NCBI GenBank assembly: GCA_040753795.1 | Contig: JBFMDX010000001.1 | Coordinates: forward strand, 124,001-188,000 | Direction of reading: 5' to 3' | DNA length: 64,000 bases | DNA from: Thermodesulfobacteriota bacterium | GTDB lineage: Bacteria; Desulfobacterota; Desulfobacteria; Desulfobacterales; Desulfosudaceae | Shown here: positions 5,774-60,500 of the stretch, piece after piece | Numbering within the stretch: position 1 is the stretch's first letter | How the letters are laid out: each line of letters begins with the position of its first letter | Position numbers and translations under genes: made by a program | The notes under the pieces: model-generated | Seen by the model: only the letters and a program-made list of their open reading frames with translations | What the model was told of the DNA's origin: nothing | The model's database searches: none

Positions 5774-6570
5774 AGAATGTCCGCCCACAGCGCCATCTCC
5801 TCCAGTTTGCAGATCGCCGCCTCGCCCACTTCCCCCAGTTCCAGGGAAAAGGGGTTGACGTACAGTTGAATATGCCCGTCGATAACCTGGTCGTCCATTT
5901 CCTGGGCGTGTTTTCTGATAAAATCCCGGGACGTTTCCGGATGGTTGACGGCGTATTGAATGGATTGCCGGATGTCTGTCTGTATGGCCTCACGGTGATC
6001 CATGGCCGGTGACGCTTTTTTGACGGCGATGCACCCCAGCGGAATCGGCAGGCCGGTTTCTTCCTCCCACCACTGGCCCAGGTCCACGATCTTCCGGCAG
6101 CCGTAATTCTGATAAACAAACCGGCCTTCGTGAATGATCAGGCCGGCGTCATAAACACCCCGGGCCACGCCCGGGAGAATGTCGTCAAATCGGGTTACCA
6201 CCGTGTGGTGGATGCCCGGGTTCCACAGCTGCAGCAGGAGACTGGCCGTGGTCATCTCTCCCGGGATGGCAATGGTGGCGTCCGGCGAGAACGCCTCCAG
6301 GTTGCGGGCTACCAGCAGGGGGCCGCAGCCGAACCCCAGGGCCGCGCCGGCGTCCAGCAGCCGGTAGTTGTCCTGCAGCTTCAGGTAGGCGAAGAAGGAC
6401 ATCTTGGTCACGTCAAAAAGTCCCGAAAAAGCAAATTCGTTAAGCTCGTCGATGTCATGCAGATGGGCAGCATATTCCAGGCCGCCGGTGTCGACAAGGC
6501 CGTGCAGGAGGGCATGAAACATGAAGGTGTCGTTGGGGCAGGGCGAGAACGCCAGGCTCAATCGGGTCAT
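5770..6570 (-). CDS. mqnD: 1,4-dihydroxy-6-naphthoate synthase
   Basis: The protein of about 266 residues starts with MTRLSLAFSPCPNDTFMFHA, the characteristic N-terminus of MqnD, and continues with FDVTKMSFFAYLKL and GFGCGPLLVAR. It has a periplasmic-binding-protein-like fold and converts cyclic dehypoxanthinyl futalosine to 1,4-dihydroxy-6-naphthoate. The ATG at 6570 overlaps the ubiE stop as ATGA, which decides the start over the upstream reading to 6615. It is followed by an overlapping mqnB, so ubiE, mqnD and mqnB form a tightly coupled group at the end of the operon. Confidence 0.95.
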   Translation of the reverse strand: MTRLSLAFSPCPNDTFMFHALLHGLVDTGGLEYAAHLHDIDELNEFAFSGLFDVTKMSFFAYLKLQDNYRLLDAGAALGFGCGPLLVARNLEAFSPDATIAIPGEMTTASLLLQLWNPGIHHTVVTRFDDILPGVARGVYDAGLIIHEGRFVYQNYGCRKIVDLGQWWEEETGLPIPLGCIAVKKASPAMDHREAIQTDIRQSIQYAVNHPETSRDFIRKHAQEMDDQVIDGHIQLYVNPFSLELGEVGEAAICKLEEMALWADIL

Positions 6571-7289
6571 GGCGTTTCCTTTCTGGCGATGATGATGGCC
6601 GCCACGCCGAAACACTGGGGAATCAGCCGGGTGGACGCGAACCCGTGTTCAAGTAGCATTTTCCGGATGTTTTCCGGGCTGATAAAAGTGGAAATCGTCC
6701 GGGCCAGATACTGATAGGCCTGGCGGTGACCCGACAGCAGACCGCCGATAACCGGCAGCAGCCGGGTCAGGTACAGGGTGTATCCGAAACGTATCAGCGG
6801 GTTGGCCGGCCGGGTCAGTTCCAGGATGACCAGTTCGCCCCCGGGCGCCAGCACCCGGAAGGCTTCGCCCATGAACACGTTGATGTCCGGTATGTTGCGG
6901 ATGCCGAAGGCGATGGTGGCCACGGCAAAGGCGTTGTCGGCAAAAGGCAGGCAGGCGGCGTCGCCGGCCACGGGAAAGTGGCGGATGGCTTTTTTCCGCA
7001 CGCCTTTTTCCAGCATGGCCAGAGAAAAATCCAGTGACGCCACGGCGGCGCCGTGCCTGTCCAGTAACAGCGACAGGTCGCCGGTGCCGCAGGCCAGGTC
7101 AACGACGGCTTTGCCTTTCACGTTCTGAATATGTCTGAAAATATTTTTTCGCCAGACAATGTCCGTGCCGAAAGACAAGACATGGTTGAGCAGGTCGTAG
7201 GTGGGCACGATGGCGTCGAACAGTCCGCGCACGAACCGCTTTTTCTCCTGGGGGGAATCGTTGTTGATCTTGTAAGTATATTCTTGCAT
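6567..7289 (-). CDS. menG: Demethylmenaquinone methyltransferase (UbiE/MenG)
   Basis: This class I methyltransferase of 240 residues has the UbiE landmarks: FDAIVPTYDLLNHVLSFGTD near the start, motif I as VVDLACGTGDLSLLL, the AFGIRNIPD segment and LELTRPANPLIRFGY. It catalyses the final C-methylation of demethylmenaquinone at the membrane. The start is uncertain: the ATG at 7289 begins MQEYTYK, while a TTG at 7307 adds six residues; neither has a clear ribosome site, because the sequence just upstream is a TTCAAGG-type repeat. It lies between the S23-type gene and mqnD in the menaquinone operon. Confidence 0.92.
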   Translation of the reverse strand: MQEYTYKINNDSPQEKKRFVRGLFDAIVPTYDLLNHVLSFGTDIVWRKNIFRHIQNVKGKAVVDLACGTGDLSLLLDRHGAAVASLDFSLAMLEKGVRKKAIRHFPVAGDAACLPFADNAFAVATIAFGIRNIPDINVFMGEAFRVLAPGGELVILELTRPANPLIRFGYTLYLTRLLPVIGGLLSGHRQAYQYLARTISTFISPENIRKMLLEHGFASTRLIPQCFGVAAIIIARKETP

Positions 7290-7290
7290 A

Positions 7291-7335
7291 GGATTAGAAG
7301 GGTTCAAGGATTCGAGGGTTCAAGGGTTCAAGGGT
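7291..7335. repeat. Inverted repeat flanking the S23-type gene (arm 1)
   Basis: This stretch contains GATTAGAAGG, then GTTCAAGGATTCGAGGGTTC and further TTCAAGGG units. Its reverse complement matches 7839-7878 closely (GATTAAAGGATTCAAGG, then ATTCGAGGGGTCAAGG). The pair brackets the four-helix-bundle gene at 7416-7787. The arm also occupies the position where the ribosome-binding site of menG should be. Confidence 0.8.
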
Positions 7336-7415
7336 GTGGAACAGAAGCATTCTAAGGTTCGATGGACCAAGGGTTAGAGGCCCCATGTTTTTTAGCGATA
7401 GTGAAAACACAGGCA

Positions 7416-7787
7416 TCAGACCTCAATTGATTTCTGTTCGAGAGATTTTATCAAAGCTTTCAGCATCCTTTCAATCTCTGAAATATCAGTTTTTGTTCGG
7501 TTAAAGTTGTCTATTCTGATAAAGCCTAAATCCCCGGCTAACAGAATCTGGGTTTCCAGTTCACAAACCGAACCATAAGCAATGTAAAGCATCCGGATAT
7601 AATCAGCGGTTGTTCTTCTGCCGTATCCTTCCGCGATATTAGACGGGATAGAAACAGCCGATCTTCTTATCTGTAGTCGCAAACCATATTTTTCATCACC
7701 CGGAAAGGCCGTTGTCAGTTTATATACATCCAAGCATAGCGCGTACGCTTTTTGCCACACCTTCAGCTCTTTATAGTTCTTTAACAT
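7416..7787 (-). CDS. Four-helix-bundle protein, S23/23S-rRNA intervening-sequence type
   Basis: The 123-residue protein has the features of the S23 / four-helix-bundle family: ELKVWQKAYALCLDVYKLT at the start, then FPGDEKYGLRLQIRRSAVSI, PSNIAEGYGR and a helical C-terminus. Family members are found in 23S rRNA intervening sequences, as Avd-type partners of diversity-generating retroelements, and as stand-alone genes of unknown function; this one is stand-alone with no reverse transcriptase nearby. It is bracketed by long inverted repeats and sits in the middle of the menaquinone operon, between mqnC and menG, to which it has no known relation. I infer it arrived as a small insertion. Confidence 0.85.
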   Translation of the reverse strand: MLKNYKELKVWQKAYALCLDVYKLTTAFPGDEKYGLRLQIRRSAVSIPSNIAEGYGRRTTADYIRMLYIAYGSVCELETQILLAGDLGFIRIDNFNRTKTDISEIERMLKALIKSLEQKSIEV

Positions 7788-7838
7788 TTCTTCGACCCTC
7801 CCTGGTCACTCAAACAAGATGTTTTATCCCTCCAGTCG

Positions 7839-7878
7839 CTTGACCCCTTGACCCCTCGAATCCTTGAATCCTTTAATC
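7839..7878. repeat. Inverted repeat flanking the S23-type gene (arm 2)
   Basis: This arm reads CTTGACCCCTTGACCCCTCG followed by AATCCTTGAATCCTTTAATC and is the near reverse complement of 7291-7335. It lies 52 bases beyond the start of the four-helix-bundle gene and 24 bases before the end of mqnC. Together the arms define a unit of roughly 590 bases. Confidence 0.8.
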
Positions 7879-7901
7879 ATGCTGGCGTTCAACTGGCTAT
7901 A

Positions 7902-8969
7902 TCAGTACTTGTGAACAATTTTGTATAAGGAATCTCTCTGCACCGGCGCCCTCCCCGCGTTTTTAACCAGCGCGATCATCTCGTCGCGGGACGAGGTGGT
8001 GGTTACCCCCGTGGCCTTGACGACCAGTTCTTCGGTAAGCACGCCGCCCATGTCATTGGCGCCAAAGGAGAGAGCGATCTGGGCCAGCCGCACCCCTTCG
8101 GTCAGCCAGCCGGCCTGGATATAGCGGATGTTGTCCAGAAAGATCCGGGAAATAGCCACGACCTTGAGATAATCCACGCCGGTGGCCGGGACGATATGCT
8201 CAAGGCGGGTCCGGGCAGGGGAGAAAGACCAGGGGATGAAGGCCTGAATGTTGCCGGTCCGGTCGGCCACTTCACGGACTACCACCAGATGTTCGATTTT
8301 TTCGGCAATGGTTTCGCCCATGCCGTAGGTCATGGTGGCTGATGACGGCAGGCCCTGATCAGCCAGGGCGGTCATGACTTCTTTCCACTGGGAAACAGTC
8401 AGTTTTTTCGGGCTGACGGTGTTGCGGATCCGATCCACCAGCAGGTCGGAGGCGCCCGGCATGGAATCCAGCCCGGCGTTCTTCAGGGCGCCGATCACGC
8501 CTTTGACGGGCATCTCTTCTTTTTCACTGATATGGATCACCTCGGCCGGCGAAAAGGAGTGCAGCCAGATGCCGGGGAACCGGGCTTTCACATTTTCCAG
8601 CAGCTGCGTGTACTGCTTCAGTCCGTAATCCGGATGCAGGCCGCCCTGGAGCATGACCTGGGTGCCGCCCGCCTCCATCAGGGCCGCGATCTTCGCTTCG
8701 ATCTCCTCAAAGGAAAGTTCATACGGGTCGATCAGGCCGGCCCGGGCGTGAAAGGCGCAGAAGGCGCAACCGGCCCGGCAGATATTGGTAAAGTTGATGA
8801 TCCGGTCAAGGATGAATCCGACCGTGTTCTCCGGATGGGCCAGGCGCATCCTGAAATCCGCGGCTTTTCCCAGATCGATCAGGTCCCAGCCAAACAGCTC
8901 CAGTGCCTCCATCGGCGTCAATCTTTTGCCCGCGTATATTTTTTCACAAAGCTCGTTGTTTATAACCAC
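7902..8969 (-). CDS. mqnC: Cyclic dehypoxanthinyl futalosine synthase (radical SAM)
   Basis: The 355-residue radical SAM enzyme has the cluster motif CRAGCAFC at C64, C68 and C71. MqnC-type features include GGTQVMLQGGLHPDYGLKQY, NTVSPKKLTVSQW and FGANDMGGVLTEE. It cyclises dehypoxanthinyl futalosine, the step between MqnB and MqnD. The only reasonable start is the GTG at 8969 (MVINNELCEK). It lies inside a GTGGTTA-type octamer array and has no clear ribosome-binding site, so translation may depend on the upstream mqnA, whose stop is 16 bases away. Confidence 0.93.
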   Translation of the reverse strand: MVINNELCEKIYAGKRLTPMEALELFGWDLIDLGKAADFRMRLAHPENTVGFILDRIINFTNICRAGCAFCAFHARAGLIDPYELSFEEIEAKIAALMEAGGTQVMLQGGLHPDYGLKQYTQLLENVKARFPGIWLHSFSPAEVIHISEKEEMPVKGVIGALKNAGLDSMPGASDLLVDRIRNTVSPKKLTVSQWKEVMTALADQGLPSSATMTYGMGETIAEKIEHLVVVREVADRTGNIQAFIPWSFSPARTRLEHIVPATGVDYLKVVAISRIFLDNIRYIQAGWLTEGVRLAQIALSFGANDMGGVLTEELVVKATGVTTTSSRDEMIALVKNAGRAPVQRDSLYKIVHKY

Positions 8970-8997
8970 CTAACCACCTAACCACTTAATCACTTAA
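8962..8997. repeat. Octamer tandem repeat between mqnA and mqnC
   Basis: On the minus strand this reads as imperfect 8-base units of the type TTAAGTGA, TTAAGTGG, TTAGGTGG, TTAGGTGG. The unit array supplies both the TAA stop of mqnA and the GTG start of mqnC. A related array occurs at 11586-11637 downstream of the ubiA-like gene. Confidence 0.75.
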
Positions 8998-9795
8998 AAC
9001 TTTTAACTCTTTTACCGTCTTAATCAATCCCAGTCCCGCGGCCTGTTCAAAATAAAACATCAAAGCCGCTTTCAACCGGTCGGTAAATTCAAATTTCAAG
9101 GTTTTATAGTATTCATCCAGGTCGTATAACACGTCCTCATATTTTTGCGCGGCCTTGCGAATGACCAGCTCCTTCTGCTGCTTGAGGCAATCCAGAGACA
9201 GATGATAAGAATCAATGACCGCCTTTATTTCCGGCAGAAAACGCTTCACGGCGTCCTGCCTGACGACGAATACAGCAAAGACCACCGGGTAGCCCGTCTT
9301 CCTTAACCACAGGTCGCCCAAATCGTAGCGGTAAGGGACCGGCCGGGTGGCGCAGACCATGGCGTCGTTGCCGATGAGCAGGGCCGCGTCCAACCCATCC
9401 AGCGTGGGCCGGGGGGCGGTGGTGACATAGGTCGGATCGGCCTGATAGTATTTTTTCAGCAGGGTTTTGAGCAGTACCGCCGACGTGTGGGAGGCGCTGG
9501 TCACGCCCACGATTTTTCCGTCCAGTTCCTCGATGGGGCATTGCGACGCCAGCGAGACCGAACCCACATAACCGATTGAACTTAAACAGAAGTCCGGCAG
9601 CACCATGATGTCGTCATGAATGTCGGCGCAGGTGGCCGAAGAGATGGGACCCATGTCCAGGTCGCCGGCCGCCATCATGGCGTTCAACTTGCCCGGGTAC
9701 CCCGGCACCACCGTCACGCCGGGAACCGGCGCCTTTTCGAACATGTGATAGTAGAACGGATAGCAGTTTAAAAAATCAATATAGCCCAGTTTCAT
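8986..9795 (-). CDS. mqnA: Chorismate dehydratase
   Basis: The 269-residue protein begins MKLGYIDFLNCYPFYYHM, the usual MqnA N-terminus, and has the periplasmic-binding-protein-like core with GPISSATCADI, VGVTSASHTSAVLLKTLL and LLIGNDAM. It dehydrates chorismate to 3-[(1-carboxyvinyl)oxy]benzoate, the first committed step of the futalosine pathway. Its ATG overlaps the stop of mqnE by four bases, indicating coupled translation. The last codons run into the octamer repeat. Confidence 0.94.
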   Translation of the reverse strand: MKLGYIDFLNCYPFYYHMFEKAPVPGVTVVPGYPGKLNAMMAAGDLDMGPISSATCADIHDDIMVLPDFCLSSIGYVGSVSLASQCPIEELDGKIVGVTSASHTSAVLLKTLLKKYYQADPTYVTTAPRPTLDGLDAALLIGNDAMVCATRPVPYRYDLGDLWLRKTGYPVVFAVFVVRQDAVKRFLPEIKAVIDSYHLSLDCLKQQKELVIRKAAQKYEDVLYDLDEYYKTLKFEFTDRLKAALMFYFEQAAGLGLIKTVKELKVLSD

Positions 9796-11585: not shown

Positions 11586-11637
11586 TAACACCCTAACACC
11601 TGAACCACTTAACCACTTAATCACTTAACCACATAAC
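11586..11637. repeat. Octamer tandem repeat downstream of the ubiA-like gene
   Basis: On the minus strand this is a run of units such as GTGGTTAA, GTGATTAA, GTGGTTAA, GTGGTTCA and GTGTTAGG. It overlaps the last codons of the ubiA-like gene, so the VVK ending and stop of that protein come from the repeat. It is the same family as 8962-8997 and abuts the REP-like hairpins. Confidence 0.7.
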
Positions 11638-54500: not shown

Positions 54501-57500
54501 CTTACGGCGATGCCGGAGTCTCCAGCAATGCCAATGCGCAGCCGGCCGGATACGTCAACGGCAATACCGACTGCGACGATACCAGCGCTGCTGTAAATCC
54601 GGGCGCTCCGGAAGTCTGCGGCGACGGGATTGATAACAACTGCTCCGGCGATGCGGACGAAGGCTGTCTGACCTGGTACAGGGACGCTGATGGTGACGGT
54701 TACGGTAATCCCGGCGTGTCCACCGTGTCCAGCACTCAGCCGGCCGGATTTGTCAGGGACGGCATGGATTGCGATGACACCGATTCGCTCGTTCATCCCG
54801 GAGCCGTGGAAGTCTGCGATGGAATTAAGGATGATAACTGCGACGGCGCCGTGGATGAGGGCTGTGTTGCCTGGCATCAGGACGCCGACGACGATGGTTA
54901 CGGTAACGCGGCGGTTTCCATGATTTCCATTGCCCAGCCGGCCGGATACGTGCTTGACCGGACGGATTGCGATGACACTAACGCCGCCGTGAACCCTGGG
55001 TTGACGGAAGTGTGCGATGACGGCCTGGACAACAACTGCGCCGGCGGTGTTGACGAGGGCTGTCTGACTTGGTATCAGGACGCCGATGGAGATCATTACG
55101 GCAATGCCGGCGTGTCTATCACGGCCATCACGCCGCCAGCCGGTTATGTGTTCGACCGGACGGATTGCGATGACGGCGATCCCGGTGTCCATCCCGGCGC
55201 GATGGAAGTTTGTGACGGCCTGGACAACAACTGCGCCGGCGGTACGGACGAAGGCTGCCTGGCCTGGTACCGGGACGCCGACGGTGACAATTACGGTAAT
55301 GCCGGCGTGTCCATGACCTCTCTCACCCAGCCGCCCGGCTACGTGCCTGATAACACCGACTGCAATGACGCCAATCCCGGCGTGAACCCCGGCGCCGCGG
55401 AGATCTGCGACTCCTGGGCCAATGACGAAGACTGTGACGGTAGCTGGGACGAGAACTGCCAGTGGTGGTATCAGGATGCCGACGGCGATAATTACGGCAA
55501 TAACGCCATCTGGCTGGTGTCCCAGACCGCGCCTCCCGGGTATGTCCTGGACTGGAAGGACTGCGATGACACCAATCCCGCAATCAATCCCAGTGCCGTG
55601 GAAATCTGCGGTGACGGTCTGGACAACAACTGTAACTGGAACATAGATGAAGGCTGCGTGACCTGGTATCAGGACGGCGACGGTGATAATTATGGCAACT
55701 CCGCCGTGTCAGTGGTATCCGAAACCCAGCCGGCCGGTTATGTAATGGACGGCACGGACTGCGATGATACCGATCCGTTGATTCATCCCGGCGCTACGGA
55801 AGTCTGTGATGGTATTAATGACGAGGATTGCGACGGCGCCGTGGATGAGAGATGCCTGGTCTGGTACCAGGACGGCGACGGTGACGGCTACGGCAATGCC
55901 GGGGTCACCCTCACGGCCGTTGATCAGACGGGCGGTTACGTGGCCGTGGCCGGCGATTGCGACGACACTAATCCGGGAGTAAACCCCGGCGTCGCGGAGG
56001 TGTGCGGTGACGGACTGGACAACAACTGCGACGGCGGCACGGACGAAGGCTGCCTGGTTTGGTACCAGGACAGTGACGGCGACAATTACGGCAATGCCGG
56101 CGTTTCCCAGTCGGCCGCCTATCAGCCTCCCGGATTTGTCCCCGACAATACCGACTGCGACGACACCAATCCGCTGAAGAATCCCGGCATGTCGGAAAAG
56201 TGCGGGGACGGTATTGACAATGACTGCGACGGCAATATTGACGACATAAGTTGTGTTAACTGGTTCAAGGATGTGGACGGCGATACCTACGGTGATCCCA
56301 CCCAGACCACCATGGCTGTCGGACAGCCGGCTGGCTACGTCTCTCGGGCCGGTGACTGTGATGATGGCAACGCGGCCGTCAATCCTGGCGTTCCGGAAGT
56401 GTGCGGTGACGCCATCGACAATAATTGCAATGGGAGCCAGGACGAAGGCTGCGTGATCTGGTACCAGGACGGCGACGGCGACAATTACGGCAATGCCGGG
56501 TCTTTTGTCACGTCTATTATTCAGCCGCCGGGGTATGTGCCGGACAGTACCGACTGCGATGACGGCAATGCCGCTGTCAATCCCGGTCAGACGGAGGTTT
56601 GCGGGGACGGCCTGGACAACGACTGCGCCGGCGGCGCCGACAACGGCTGCCAGACCTGGTATCAGGACGGCGACGGTGATAATTACGGCAACCCCAGTGT
56701 CTGGATTGTCTCCGTCACCAGGCCGCCCGGATACGTGGAAGACCGGACGGATTGTGATGACGCCAATCCGGCCGTCCATCCCGGCGCCCAGGAGGTCTGC
56801 GACAACTGGATGACCGATGAAGATTGCGACGGGGTGTGGGACGAGGGCTGCCAGGGGTGGTGTCAGGACGCCGACGGTGACACCTTCGGTAATAGTGCCG
56901 TCTGGGTCAACGCCATGGTCCGACCGCCCGGTTATGTCTACGACTGGAACGACTGCGATGATACCAATGCCGCCATTCATCCCGGGGTTCCGGAGTTGTG
57001 CGACGGCATCGACAATAACTGCAACTGGTGGACGGACGAGACCTGCGTGACCTGGTATGAAGACGCGGACGGCGACAATTATGGCAACTCCGCCGTATCC
57101 GTGGTGGCCATTGTCCAGCCGGCCGGTTACGTGGCGGACGGCACGGACTGCGACGACACCAATGCCGGTGTCAATCCCGGCATGGCGGAGGTGTGCGCGG
57201 ACGGTCTTGACAATGACTGCTTCGGCGGCGCGGACAACGGCTGCCTGACCTGGTATCCGGATAGCGACGGTGATAATTTTGGCGGTCCCGGTGCCCCCAT
57301 GGACGCCATTGTCCAGCCGGCGGGCTATGTGTCCGACGACACGGACTGCGACGATACCAACACCGCCGTCCACCCGGGCGCCATGGAAGTGTGCGGGGAC
57401 GGTCTGGACAACGATTGCCTCGACGGTGCGGATAACGGCTGCCTGACCTGGTATCAGGACAGTGACGGTGACAATTACGGCAATGCCGGTGTTGCCCTGG

Positions 57501-60500
57501 CGACCGTCATTCAACCCCCGGGCTATGTGTCCGACGGCACGGACTGCGACGACACCAATGCCGGCGTCAATCCCGGCATGGCGGAGGTGTGCGGGGACGG
57601 TCTTGACAACGACTGCGCCGGCGGCGTGGACGACGGCTGCCAGGTCTGGTACCTGGACAATGATAGTGATAGTTACGGAGACCCGGCGGTTTCCACCCAG
57701 TCCGCTATCCGGCCGGCCGGGTACGTAAGCAACAACATGGATTGTGATGACGCCAGGGCTTTTGTCAATCCCGGCGCGACGGAAATTTGCGACGGCATTG
57801 ATAATAACTGTGTCGGCGGTATCGATGAGGGCTGCACGGCTTGGTATCGAGACAATGACGGTGACAATTTCGGCTCCGCCGTTTCCACCCGGGCAGATCT
57901 CCAGCCGGCCGGTTACGCAGCCCTGCCGGGTGACTGTAATGACGCTAATGCCGCTATTAATCCCGGCGTTACGGAGGTCTGCGGCGACGGCGTTGATAAC
58001 GATTGTGACGGCGGTCTGGACGAAGGGTGCGTCCGATGGTACCGGGACAGTGACGGCGACGCCTATGGCGACCCGGCCGTCTCTGTCGATGCCGTGAGCC
58101 AACCGGCAGGGTATGTCGCTGCCGGAACGGATTGTGATGATAATGATGCCGCCGTCAATCCCGGTGCCGTGGAAGTCTGTGATGGTGTTGATAATGATTG
58201 TGACGGCGGTCTGGACGAAGGGTGTGTGGCCTGGTACCAGGATAATGATGCTGACGGTTACGGTAATGACGCCGTCACCACGATAGCCGTCACTCAGCCG
58301 GCCGGATATGCCGGCAGAGGCGGAGACTGCAATGACGCTGACACCGCCGTCAATCCCGCCGCCGTTGAAATCTGCGACGGCGCGGACAACGACTGTGACG
58401 GCAGAGCCGACGAAGGGTGCGTGGCCTGGTACCAGGACCTTGACGGCGACACTTACGGTGATTCCGCCATTGCTGTCACCGCCGTTCTGCAACCGCTCGG
58501 TTTTGCGGCCAGAGACGGAGACTGTGAGGACAGTAATGCCGCCGTCAATCCCGGCGTAACCGAAGTCTGTGGTGACGGGGTTGATAACGACTGTGACGGC
58601 AGCGCCGACGAAGGGTGTATTACCTGGTATCAGGACCTCGATGGCGACAATTACGGCCTGCCGGGCGCTGTCATCGAAGCCGTTACCCGGCCGGATGATT
58701 ACACCGACAGGGGCGGGGATTGCAATGACGCCGATAGCGACGTAAATCCCGGAGTGGCCGAAGTCTGTGACGACGGTATTGACAATGACTGTGACGGATC
58801 GCAAGACGAGGGCTGCGCTGACTGGTATCAGGATAATGACGGCGACGGTTACGGCTCCGTCCACACTATTTCTGATTTTACCCGGCCGCCCGGGTACGTG
58901 GCGGTCCCCGGCGACTGTAACGACGCCGATGCTGCCATTCATAAAGGAGTGAGGGAAACCTGCGATGGTATTGATAATGACTGCGACGGCGCCGTAGACG
59001 AAGGTTGTATCTTCTGGTATCAGGACCTTGATGGCGATAAATTCGGAAACCCCGAGGTTTACATCAAAGAGGTTTCTCAGCCTGCCGGTTACGTGGCCGC
59101 CGGCGGTGATTGTGATGACGCCAATCCCGCTATCCGTCCCTTTGTGCTGGATCTGTGCGATCATCTGGATAATGACTGCGACTTTGCTTCCGATGAAGAT
59201 GTCCCCAAGGAAGATTATAAGAAGACTTATCAGGATTATGACGGCGACGGATACGGTAATCCCGGCGTCTATGTGGAAGATTGCATGCTGGATGTCGGTT
59301 ATGTCATAGACGCCAGCGATTGTAACGACAAAGATGCGGATGTTCATCCCGAAGCCTTTGATGTTTGCGACAACGGTATTGACGAGGACTGCTCCGGAGC
59401 AGACCGTCCCTGCGGCACGACCGCGACCCGGGGCTGCGCGAATATAGCCGCCGTCCCCCTGGAAACCCAGGTGGATTCCGCGCCGCCCATTGTCATGCTG
59501 CTGCTGGATAACTCCGGGAGCATGTCGTGGAATGTCATGTGCCCAGGGGAGGCGGACGGGCTTTACAAGGGTTACTCCGACTGCACCACGGGAAATAATG
59601 AATACTGGCAGGCCCAATATTCGGGGAAAAATACGATTTATTACAACCCGAATGTGGAATACACGCCCTGGCCGAATTATTCGAACGCGAACAAACAGAG
59701 GCCCAGACAACACCCGGATGCGTCACCGACCACGGACCTGGACAGTAAATTTGAAACCTTCAGCGGAGCAGGCGGGATTGACGTCAAGGTAGCCCATTAC
59801 TATGCCTGGTCCTCAACCGAACAGAGACCCTATTTGGTGTTTGTCAACAATTCCAGCGTAACTTATTACAGGATCAATCCACCGGCGGACAATGAACTGG
59901 ATGCCAACCATGTCACCGGACCGGTGGCGGCGTCAGCGGTTCCGAATGACGCGATTATTCCCCAGGCCTGGAAGGATGGCAACCGGGAGTGCTCGGCGGC
60001 TGAAGCGGATGCCGCGCGGCAGAATTTTGCCAACTGGTACCAGTACTACCGCACCCGCATGCTGACGGCCATCAACACGCTGGTCTCGGTGGTGTCAAAT
60101 GTTTCGGGCATCAAGCTCGGCGTTACGACTATCAACGTCAATTCCGCCAGCGGCTTCTTCGAGCCGGTTCTGGTGGATGACAAGGTCGACACTGCCAGCG
60201 GCCACGACGGCCCCGCCAACCGGCAGAGCGTTATCGACTTTATCCTTGAATCCGGCGTACCCAACGGCGGTACGCCTCTGCTGCGGACGTATCGATCTCT
60301 CGGCGATTATTTTGATAATGCCGCTCACGACAGCAGGCCTTCCCCATGGGCCAGCGAGGAGGAAGGGGGCGAATGCCAGATGGCATTCATTATTTTGATG
60401 ACGGATGGCTATTACAATGGGGCCAATCCGGGCATCGATGACGAGGATGGTAATCAGAACACCGCCTTTGACGGCCCCCCCTTTGCCGACGCTTATGGCC

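Follow-up and report, generated by a model that had tools for sequence, protein, structure and literature searches.

The closest described systems to the locus reported here are the rRNA intervening sequences (IVSs) of the Leptospira/Coxiella type, which share with it the S23/IVP protein family, a suspected mobility and a build in which terminal inverted repeats close a stem around one ORF; the available part of the Coxiella study gives that stem as 28 bp long (PMC4990558). In CPR bacteria, S23 (23S_rRNA_IVP) ORFs lie within insertions of 16S and 23S rRNA, as described in the accessible portion of PMC11270868. Miniature inverted-repeat elements (MITEs) are likewise short and free of a transposase, and the clade nearest to our S23 protein (the sister clade) resembles them further in its terminal inverted repeats, fixed duplications and many deletion derivatives. 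In REPIN/RAYT systems, short inverted repeats are dispersed and related repeats frame a gene, as in the S23 element. Tandem heptamer repeats (STRRs) are dispersed in the genomes of heterocystous cyanobacteria. Dispersed heptamers have also been described as GGGAATC of Xanthomonas, often in convergent pairs, and GGGGAYT of Nostoc (PMC4692102, in excerpt), and as TAACTGA of Beggiatoaceae (PMC4679880, in excerpt); the excerpts of these two papers contain 0 occurrences of S23, and that of the Xanthomonas paper does not mention XCC0516. Such repeats are like the arms of S23 loci in their period of 7, intergenic place and degeneracy. Finally, Avd of diversity-generating retroelements is a homologue of S23, according to the part of PMC10053308 available.

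Here we describe an S23 unit between two protein genes of a Thermodesulfobacteriota bacterium. It lies in a stretch of 64,000 nucleotides, the whole of which we call the window, and its features are collected in Table 1. In profile searches the protein exceeds both curated cut-offs of its family, with 133.6 bits for PF05635 (cut-off 33.8) and 130.9 bits for TIGR02436 (23S_rRNA_IVP; cut-off 24), and is assigned to PF05635/TIGR02436; its matches to DivGenRetAVD (28.6 bits, cut-off 80) and bAvd (26 bits, cut-off 40) are weak and below both thresholds. The nearest solved structures, 2gsc and 2rld, have five chains in each entry. The gene is positioned between mqnC and menG, in a menaquinone (vitamin K2) operon, and oriented as both, which bears out the original prediction that an S23-type gene separates the two. 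Searched against Rfam, window positions 6500–9000 gave no rRNA match; two matches far under the gathering scores were regarded as chance.

Table 1. Features of the S23 unit and its host genes (window positions).
Feature	Position	Strand	Remarks
Inserted spacer, mqnC stop to menG ATG	7290–7901	(−)	Missing from three relatives with fused mqnC–menG
S23/four helix bundle protein gene	7416–7787	(−)	123 aa, intact; profile matches
3′ arm (S23 sense)	7286–7340	(−)	Reverse complement of about five RAGGRKTC units
5′ arm (S23 sense)	7831–7882	(−)	About four to five RAGGRKTC units
mqnC, upstream host gene	7902–8969	(−)	TIGR03699, 402.3 bits; below the cut-off of 428.1, yet top match
menG/ubiE-type methyltransferase gene, downstream host gene	6567–7289	(−)	TIGR01934, 219.2 bits; cut-off 158.35

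The inverted repeats of about 40 bases that had been predicted around the gene are indeed present: the arms (7298–7340 and 7831–7873) are 43 nt each, 86% complementary and 490 nt apart, and their units, correctly described as TTCAAGG-like, can be written RAGGRKTC. A tandem repeat of period 8 occupies 7298–7335, inside the 3′ arm. When the insert is folded as RNA the arm stem closes (z = −6.0 against 20 shuffles) with pairing from 7286 to 7882, slightly beyond the span of 7291–7878 at first assigned to the unit, which holds in essence. The 3′ arm abuts the menG start codon with slight overlap (the ATG is at 7289 on the minus strand), and the arm sequence just before it, AACCCTTCTAATCCT-ATG, occupies the Shine–Dalgarno place, where no ribosome site is visible. 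As proposed from the sequence, the left arm thus stands where the menG ribosome site would be expected; three relatives start menG on or next to the mqnC stop.

About 590 nt of the spacer of roughly 610 nt between the mqnC stop and the menG ATG is closed by the arms. When 58 genomes, its own included, were searched for mqnC, the gene was found in 35, and 30 loci (again with its own) were read. In three relatives (L159 in G003, L160 in G029 and L168 in G015), menG directly follows mqnC without an S23 gene, and the stop and start codons overlap or touch (TAAATG, ATGA, GTGA). Seven further orthologous loci (L161–L167, in the 58–65% identity class) have mqnD or nothing recognised after mqnC and are uninformative on insertion; the other 19 are more distant homologues with a different gene order. 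Because three relatives have mqnC and menG fused, the simplest reading of the window spacer is that it was inserted at a coupled junction, and the case illustrates how such a unit can become established within a translationally coupled operon. The empty-site check suggested with the original prediction therefore succeeded, and the outcome that would have refuted it, the gene being at this site in all relatives with unrelated flanks, did not occur. Evidence of insertion for the window copy itself is limited to the empty junction in three distant relatives, and its own target duplication is not readable.

The arms recur across the genome. A degenerate three-unit pattern with up to 3 mismatches has 144 matches in the 4.75-Mb genome and 0 when reversed, and a 17-mer gives 57 against 0; these counts show that the RAGGRKTC arrays are not due to chance, and the search for further arm copies, with or without an S23 gene, has thus returned same-unit arrays spread across the genome. 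Arrays of the RAGGRKTC type comprise 4–5 units in 115 of 154 cases, and longer arrays are found in some other S23 lineages (L189, L274). Among the fetched loci, convergent pairs without an S23 gene are present at L005, L006, L007, L013, L028, L142, L146 and L155, solitary arrays are also numerous, and the window's is the only pair among these loci to enclose S23. The genome has two S23 matches, the second being 29% identical with no arms shown. A second family of 8-nt arrays (AAGTGGTT/AAGTGATT) occurs in the same operon region, at window positions 8963–8997 and 11603–11637; its three-unit pattern has 60 matches in the genome and 0 reversed, and convergent pairs are present. One such pair (L388 573–1346, G000 C8) surrounds an ORF of 121 aa that has no Pfam match above cut-off; it is probably a small membrane protein and perhaps another cargo. 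Elsewhere in the window (54635–57659), long tandem repeats of ~198 nt, 68–77% alike, probably lie within a repetitive protein gene.

To place the unit among other S23 genes, the best 80 of 551 confirmed S23 loci from a scan of named genomes, spanning many phyla, were taken. Together with other fetched loci they yielded 125 non-redundant full-length S23 genes with flanks, after exclusion of incomplete matches (38 of 178 frames), of loci with less than 150 nt of flank and of copies with an identical 100-nt gene stretch. Inverted arms, defined as an inverted repeat of score ≥12 within 200 nt, flank 87 of the 125 genes, against 4 of 312 positions placed at random within these loci; mispaired flanks reach the threshold in 11 of 371 cases. 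Some of the 38 loci below it fall short for a methodological reason, their 3′ arm extending into the end of the open frame; L190, L193 and L091, for example, were scored as misses though arms or parts of them are discernible by other inspection. Of the 68 loci with arms of at least 20 nt, 34 have a best period of 7 and 31 one of 8 (65/68), a preference absent from shuffled arms; the 5′ arm is purine-rich in the S23 sense in 58, and the median arm-to-arm length is 489 nt. The units vary by lineage (RAGGRKTC, AAAGGCAC, TAGGCAC, GGGAGTC, AGTTGACA, AGGGAAC and others), and arms resembling those of RAGGRKTC units are present too in hosts titled Nitrospiraceae, Thermodesulfovibrionia and WOR-3 (L079, L077, L086, L088). 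The window unit thus belongs to a general class found in many phyla. Phage carriage was considered as well, and a tblastn search of a phage collection gave no match. An rRNA location was considered for these loci, and two conserved 23S motifs were found in none of those collected by then. Searches of open PubMed Central literature listed no paper that we recognised as connecting S23 genes with such repeats, which is no proof of absence, since only open papers were covered.

Which arms a locus has depends on its S23 lineage rather than on its host. At nine S23 loci of one genome (G043), each arm scores 10–40 with its own partner and mostly 6–10 with the arms of other loci, with cross-match exceptions of 25, 17, 13 and 12. 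Seven loci of Flavobacterium saccharophilum DSM 1811 give 11–18 for the own partner and 7–11 otherwise, and in a Prevotella genome arms are common to L316 and L318, the rest not being shared. Two genomes are less clear: in G016 one cross-pairing scores 23, more than either of the own pairings concerned (18 and 11), and in G025 three of six own scores do not reach 10. Across hosts, 51% of 55 pairs with S23 identity of at least 65% share arms (score reaching 12), compared with 0 of 30 same-host pairs with identity below 45%. In 75 loci with a score of at least 13, arm similarity increases with S23 identity (correlation 0.26; 0 of 500 permutations as high). Similar pairs come mostly from one clade, so this co-variation does not represent many independent events.

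In the sister clade, the arms sit inside longer elements with sharp ends, GGATCATCTCCCGATTAGTTG at the 5′ end and GGTTCTTCTCCAATTTAGTTGGAGAA on the opposite strand, which form terminal inverted repeats of ~25 nt. Exact 8-bp direct repeats are found outside 12 of 26 distinct elements, 7 of 8 positions match in five more and nine have no clear duplication. Exact 9- or 10-bp repeats occur in none of the 26, and only 2 of 1,332 mismatched end pairs have an exact 8-bp repeat. The 26 elements were counted by hand from 37 rows, several of these rows being readings of a single element from either strand or from different starting positions; L221 and L230 look like false pairings of different elements' ends and were kept in the denominator. 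One of the 12, L006, lies in the genome of the window; it is 338 bp long, has no intact S23 gene and carries AAAATTTT on both sides. Ten elements from terminal-repeat loci were inspected by eye: exact 8-bp repeats flank L288 (132 bp) and L297 (357 bp), the repeats of L290 and L287 agree at 7 of 8 positions, and the other six show neither. S23 remnants are detectable in L247, L250, L251 and L252, and weakly in L006. These observations show that the class moves as a DNA unit and that the element sheds graded deletion derivatives lacking S23. Contigs of G039 (L217, L218, L220, L223–L228) often end in or near S23 elements, as expected from several near-identical copies. At the window unit, no pair of sister-type terminal repeats was found, even when 6 substitutions per end were allowed.

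Cyanobacterial plasmids, with 48 records containing S23, provided occupied and empty junctions on highly similar backbones in five sets (A–E). In set A, L190 and L200 are occupied and L195–L198 are empty, with 13 nt between the genes and backbones ~97% identical; a relic (L199) keeps the left arm and the first part of S23. In set B, L188 and L194 are occupied, L201 and L202 lack the insert, L203 has at the same spot an S23-less insert with arms of the same units, and L204 has another insert. Set C comprises occupied L191 and L192 and empty L205–L207 (3 nt), and set D occupied L193 and L208 and empty L209, L210, L212, L213 and L214 (3 nt); L211 (1018–1619) of set D is a nested insertion, its S23 gene being interrupted by an element that lacks S23 but shares its arm units. 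In set E, L214 has another S23 gene with other arms at the next junction, which is empty in L193, L208, L210 and L213. Read by eye, the duplications are at most 5 nt in set A and at most 3 nt in set E, and are unreadable in the other sets; because they do not exceed 3–5 nt, the ends and the mover are inferred to differ between lineages. Like the plasmid elements, the window copy has no outer terminal repeat that could be recognised. Heptamer arms are found at S23 genes of Nostoc, Calothrix and Pseudanabaena plasmids, the unit in Nostoc being AGGGAAC. On plasmid pPg_01 of Pseudanabaena galeata (L189 1285–1966), cas6 and cas4 flank an S23 gene whose TTAGCTT/AAAAGCT arrays are long. The empty sites, the dispersed arrays, the terminal repeats and 8-bp duplications of the sister clade and the plasmid junctions together support the proposal that the window holds a small non-autonomous mobile unit.

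No transposase was found in or beside the elements. Elements of the ISL3 family make 8-bp duplications and have GGNTCTT ends, for which reason ISL3 was tested as the mover. It fits poorly, most carriers being without it: at E ≤ 1e-3, PF01610 has no match in G018, G039, G056, G007, G009 and G005, only a fragment in G000, and is present in G025. A larger parent element was also sought, and none of 20 terminal-repeat loci fetched spans a transposase gene; those with both ends recognised are short elements of 75–382 bp. Where terminal repeats and 8-bp duplications exist, an enzyme acting in trans is the simplest reading.

On balance we judge it probable, with appreciable doubt remaining, that the window holds one copy of a widespread transposon-like S23 element which its own protein serves and an enzyme supplied in trans moves. 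The arms and the gene could instead be mere passengers, a DDE-derived miniature inverted-repeat element having acquired them, with an unlinked transposase using the outer repeats and S23 being kept for a host-side reason. Terminal repeats with 8-bp duplications, as in the sister clade, are typical of DDE elements, and derivatives without S23 also move or have moved. However, insertion happened even without outer terminal repeats, on the plasmids and in the window; the arms co-vary with S23; and the arm pairs inspected hold S23, remnants of it or short non-coding DNA and no range of genes, except for one pair of a different unit family that surrounds another small ORF. We regard this passenger origin as unlikely, though not negligible.

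Whether S23 is itself maintained can be read from its substitutions. Among 19 clade members the median pN is 0.20 and the median pS 0.80, and the median dN/dS is 0.23 (28 of 171 pairs, with dS <2), which indicates purifying selection on the protein. By simple ORF calls, S23 shares the direction of its two neighbours in 61 loci and opposes the two in 2, the remaining 62 of 125 having mixed or unknown neighbours; DNA inserted at random should give equal counts. Together with the stable closing stem of the window insert, this bias would suit an IVS-like unit of mRNA whose arm stem is excised by RNase III and which spreads by way of RNA, perhaps with the help of a reverse transcriptase, S23 playing the part that Avd plays in its own system. 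The homology of S23 to Avd (PMC10053308, in part) and the excision of the Coxiella IVS by RNase III at its stem (PMC4990558, in part) also favour such a route. Against it, the fixed 8-bp duplications and terminal repeats of the sister clade fit DNA transposition, and the sense bias may stem from selection: it resembles that of native operon genes, given that ordinary genes in a small control of 21 triples had 13 in the sense of both neighbours and 1 against. Spread at the RNA level is, in our estimate, improbable.

Movement by a Y1 (RAYT/IS200-like) transposase, with the arrays serving as REP-like ends as for REPINs, appears very improbable. Y1 genes are present in all 6 genomes searched, and dispersed short inverted repeats recall REPINs; but arrays of the unit lie near 0 of the 26 Y1 loci, of which one has terminal-repeat-like matches without S23, and 8-bp duplications do not suit Y1 chemistry. 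Unlike REPIN/RAYT systems, moreover, the S23 element frames a gene that is no nuclease, and its arrays have periods of 7 and 8. In G056, two sister-like terminal repeats flank ~590 nt without S23 beside a Y1 transposase gene (L368 1894–2484).

Not all S23 loci are recent arrivals. A Flavobacterium S23 locus used as query (1551 bases) has essentially full-length matches in at least 60 of 199 genomes, and S23 was confirmed in the 30 matches fetched; in other genomes among the matches listed, the flanks of the locus match separately, for example 85 nt apart in G071. The age and vertical inheritance of this locus mean that a settled role for S23 is also possible. CAAAG-type units predominate in 16 of the 30 copies (L322–L351) and CTAAG-type units in 14. 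In 27 copies the two arms agree in type, which shows that the arms changed together; the change may have been a single switch. Own arms exceed mispairings overall (0 of 5,000 permutations). Co-variation within one unit type is weak (345 and 63 of 5,000 permutations), and no claim is made for it. That S23 is never mobile, the window gene being native to the operon with flanks that grew by slippage and kept their symmetry through RNA pairing, is scarcely credible: slippage can create short tandem units and some S23 loci are old and vertical, but empty sites and target duplications refute it for the sister clade and the plasmids, array length is narrow (4–5 units in 115/154) instead of broadly ranging, and the window copy would require three losses at fused junctions.

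The preferred reading remains a transposon-like element whose sole gene is S23 and whose body is closed by inverted arrays, usually of four or five units of 7–8 nt. In this model S23 would serve the element by binding the units repeated in its own hairpin, either in the DNA or in the transcript; strand exchange would be carried out by an enzyme supplied in trans, which for the sister clade may be a DDE transposase, to judge from the 8-bp duplications; and the element would persist mainly where a host operon transcribes S23. That S23 acts as a ring protein on its own array is inferred from selection, sense bias, arrays of 4–5 units and five-chain structures, in the absence of binding data. Points against this reading are that no enzyme has been found, that 38 of 125 loci lack arms over the threshold and that the window copy lacks outer repeats.

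The unit was not classed as an rRNA IVS or a MITE because one defining feature of each was tested and not met. In contrast to rRNA IVSs, it lies between protein genes and not inside rRNA, its arms are arrays of 7–8-nt units recurring genome-wide, and sister copies have outer terminal repeats and 8-bp duplications. The original prediction had called it different from rRNA-borne copies, which holds for location and not for build, terminal inverted repeats around an S23 ORF being common to both. Unlike MITEs, the longest S23 forms carry a conserved, selected gene, no parent with a transposase was found (20 terminal-repeat loci) and the window copy is without outer repeats. The window unit is thus built like an rRNA IVS, and its sisters behave like a MITE. 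Heptamer arms akin to the named dispersed repeats were seen at S23 genes (AGGGAAC in Nostoc plasmids; GGGAGTC/GGGAATC in a Phycisphaeraceae genome, L128), identity with those repeats not being shown.

The finding points beyond the single locus, to S23 elements as a mobile class in which the repeat arms are specific to the element. TRAP binds tandem triplets. By analogy, S23 elements could be a distinct, phylum-spanning class of mobile DNA with a single gene, for a four-helix-bundle protein that has no nuclease and forms a ring; the protein would bind the 4–5 units of its own array, perhaps with one unit per subunit; recognition coevolving with the arms would drive the element with a borrowed transposase, and many repeats of the STRR/GGGAATC type would be arms or relics. 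We offer this extended proposal only tentatively, as a possibility with the weight of expectation against it. S23 genes outside rRNA are common and have no known function, and short-period repeats have no accepted origin. The link between them gives S23 a context, as an element-borne factor, and offers a possible source for at least some short dispersed repeats; both the role of S23 and the origin of the repeats are testable in culturable bacteria such as Flavobacterium and Nostoc.
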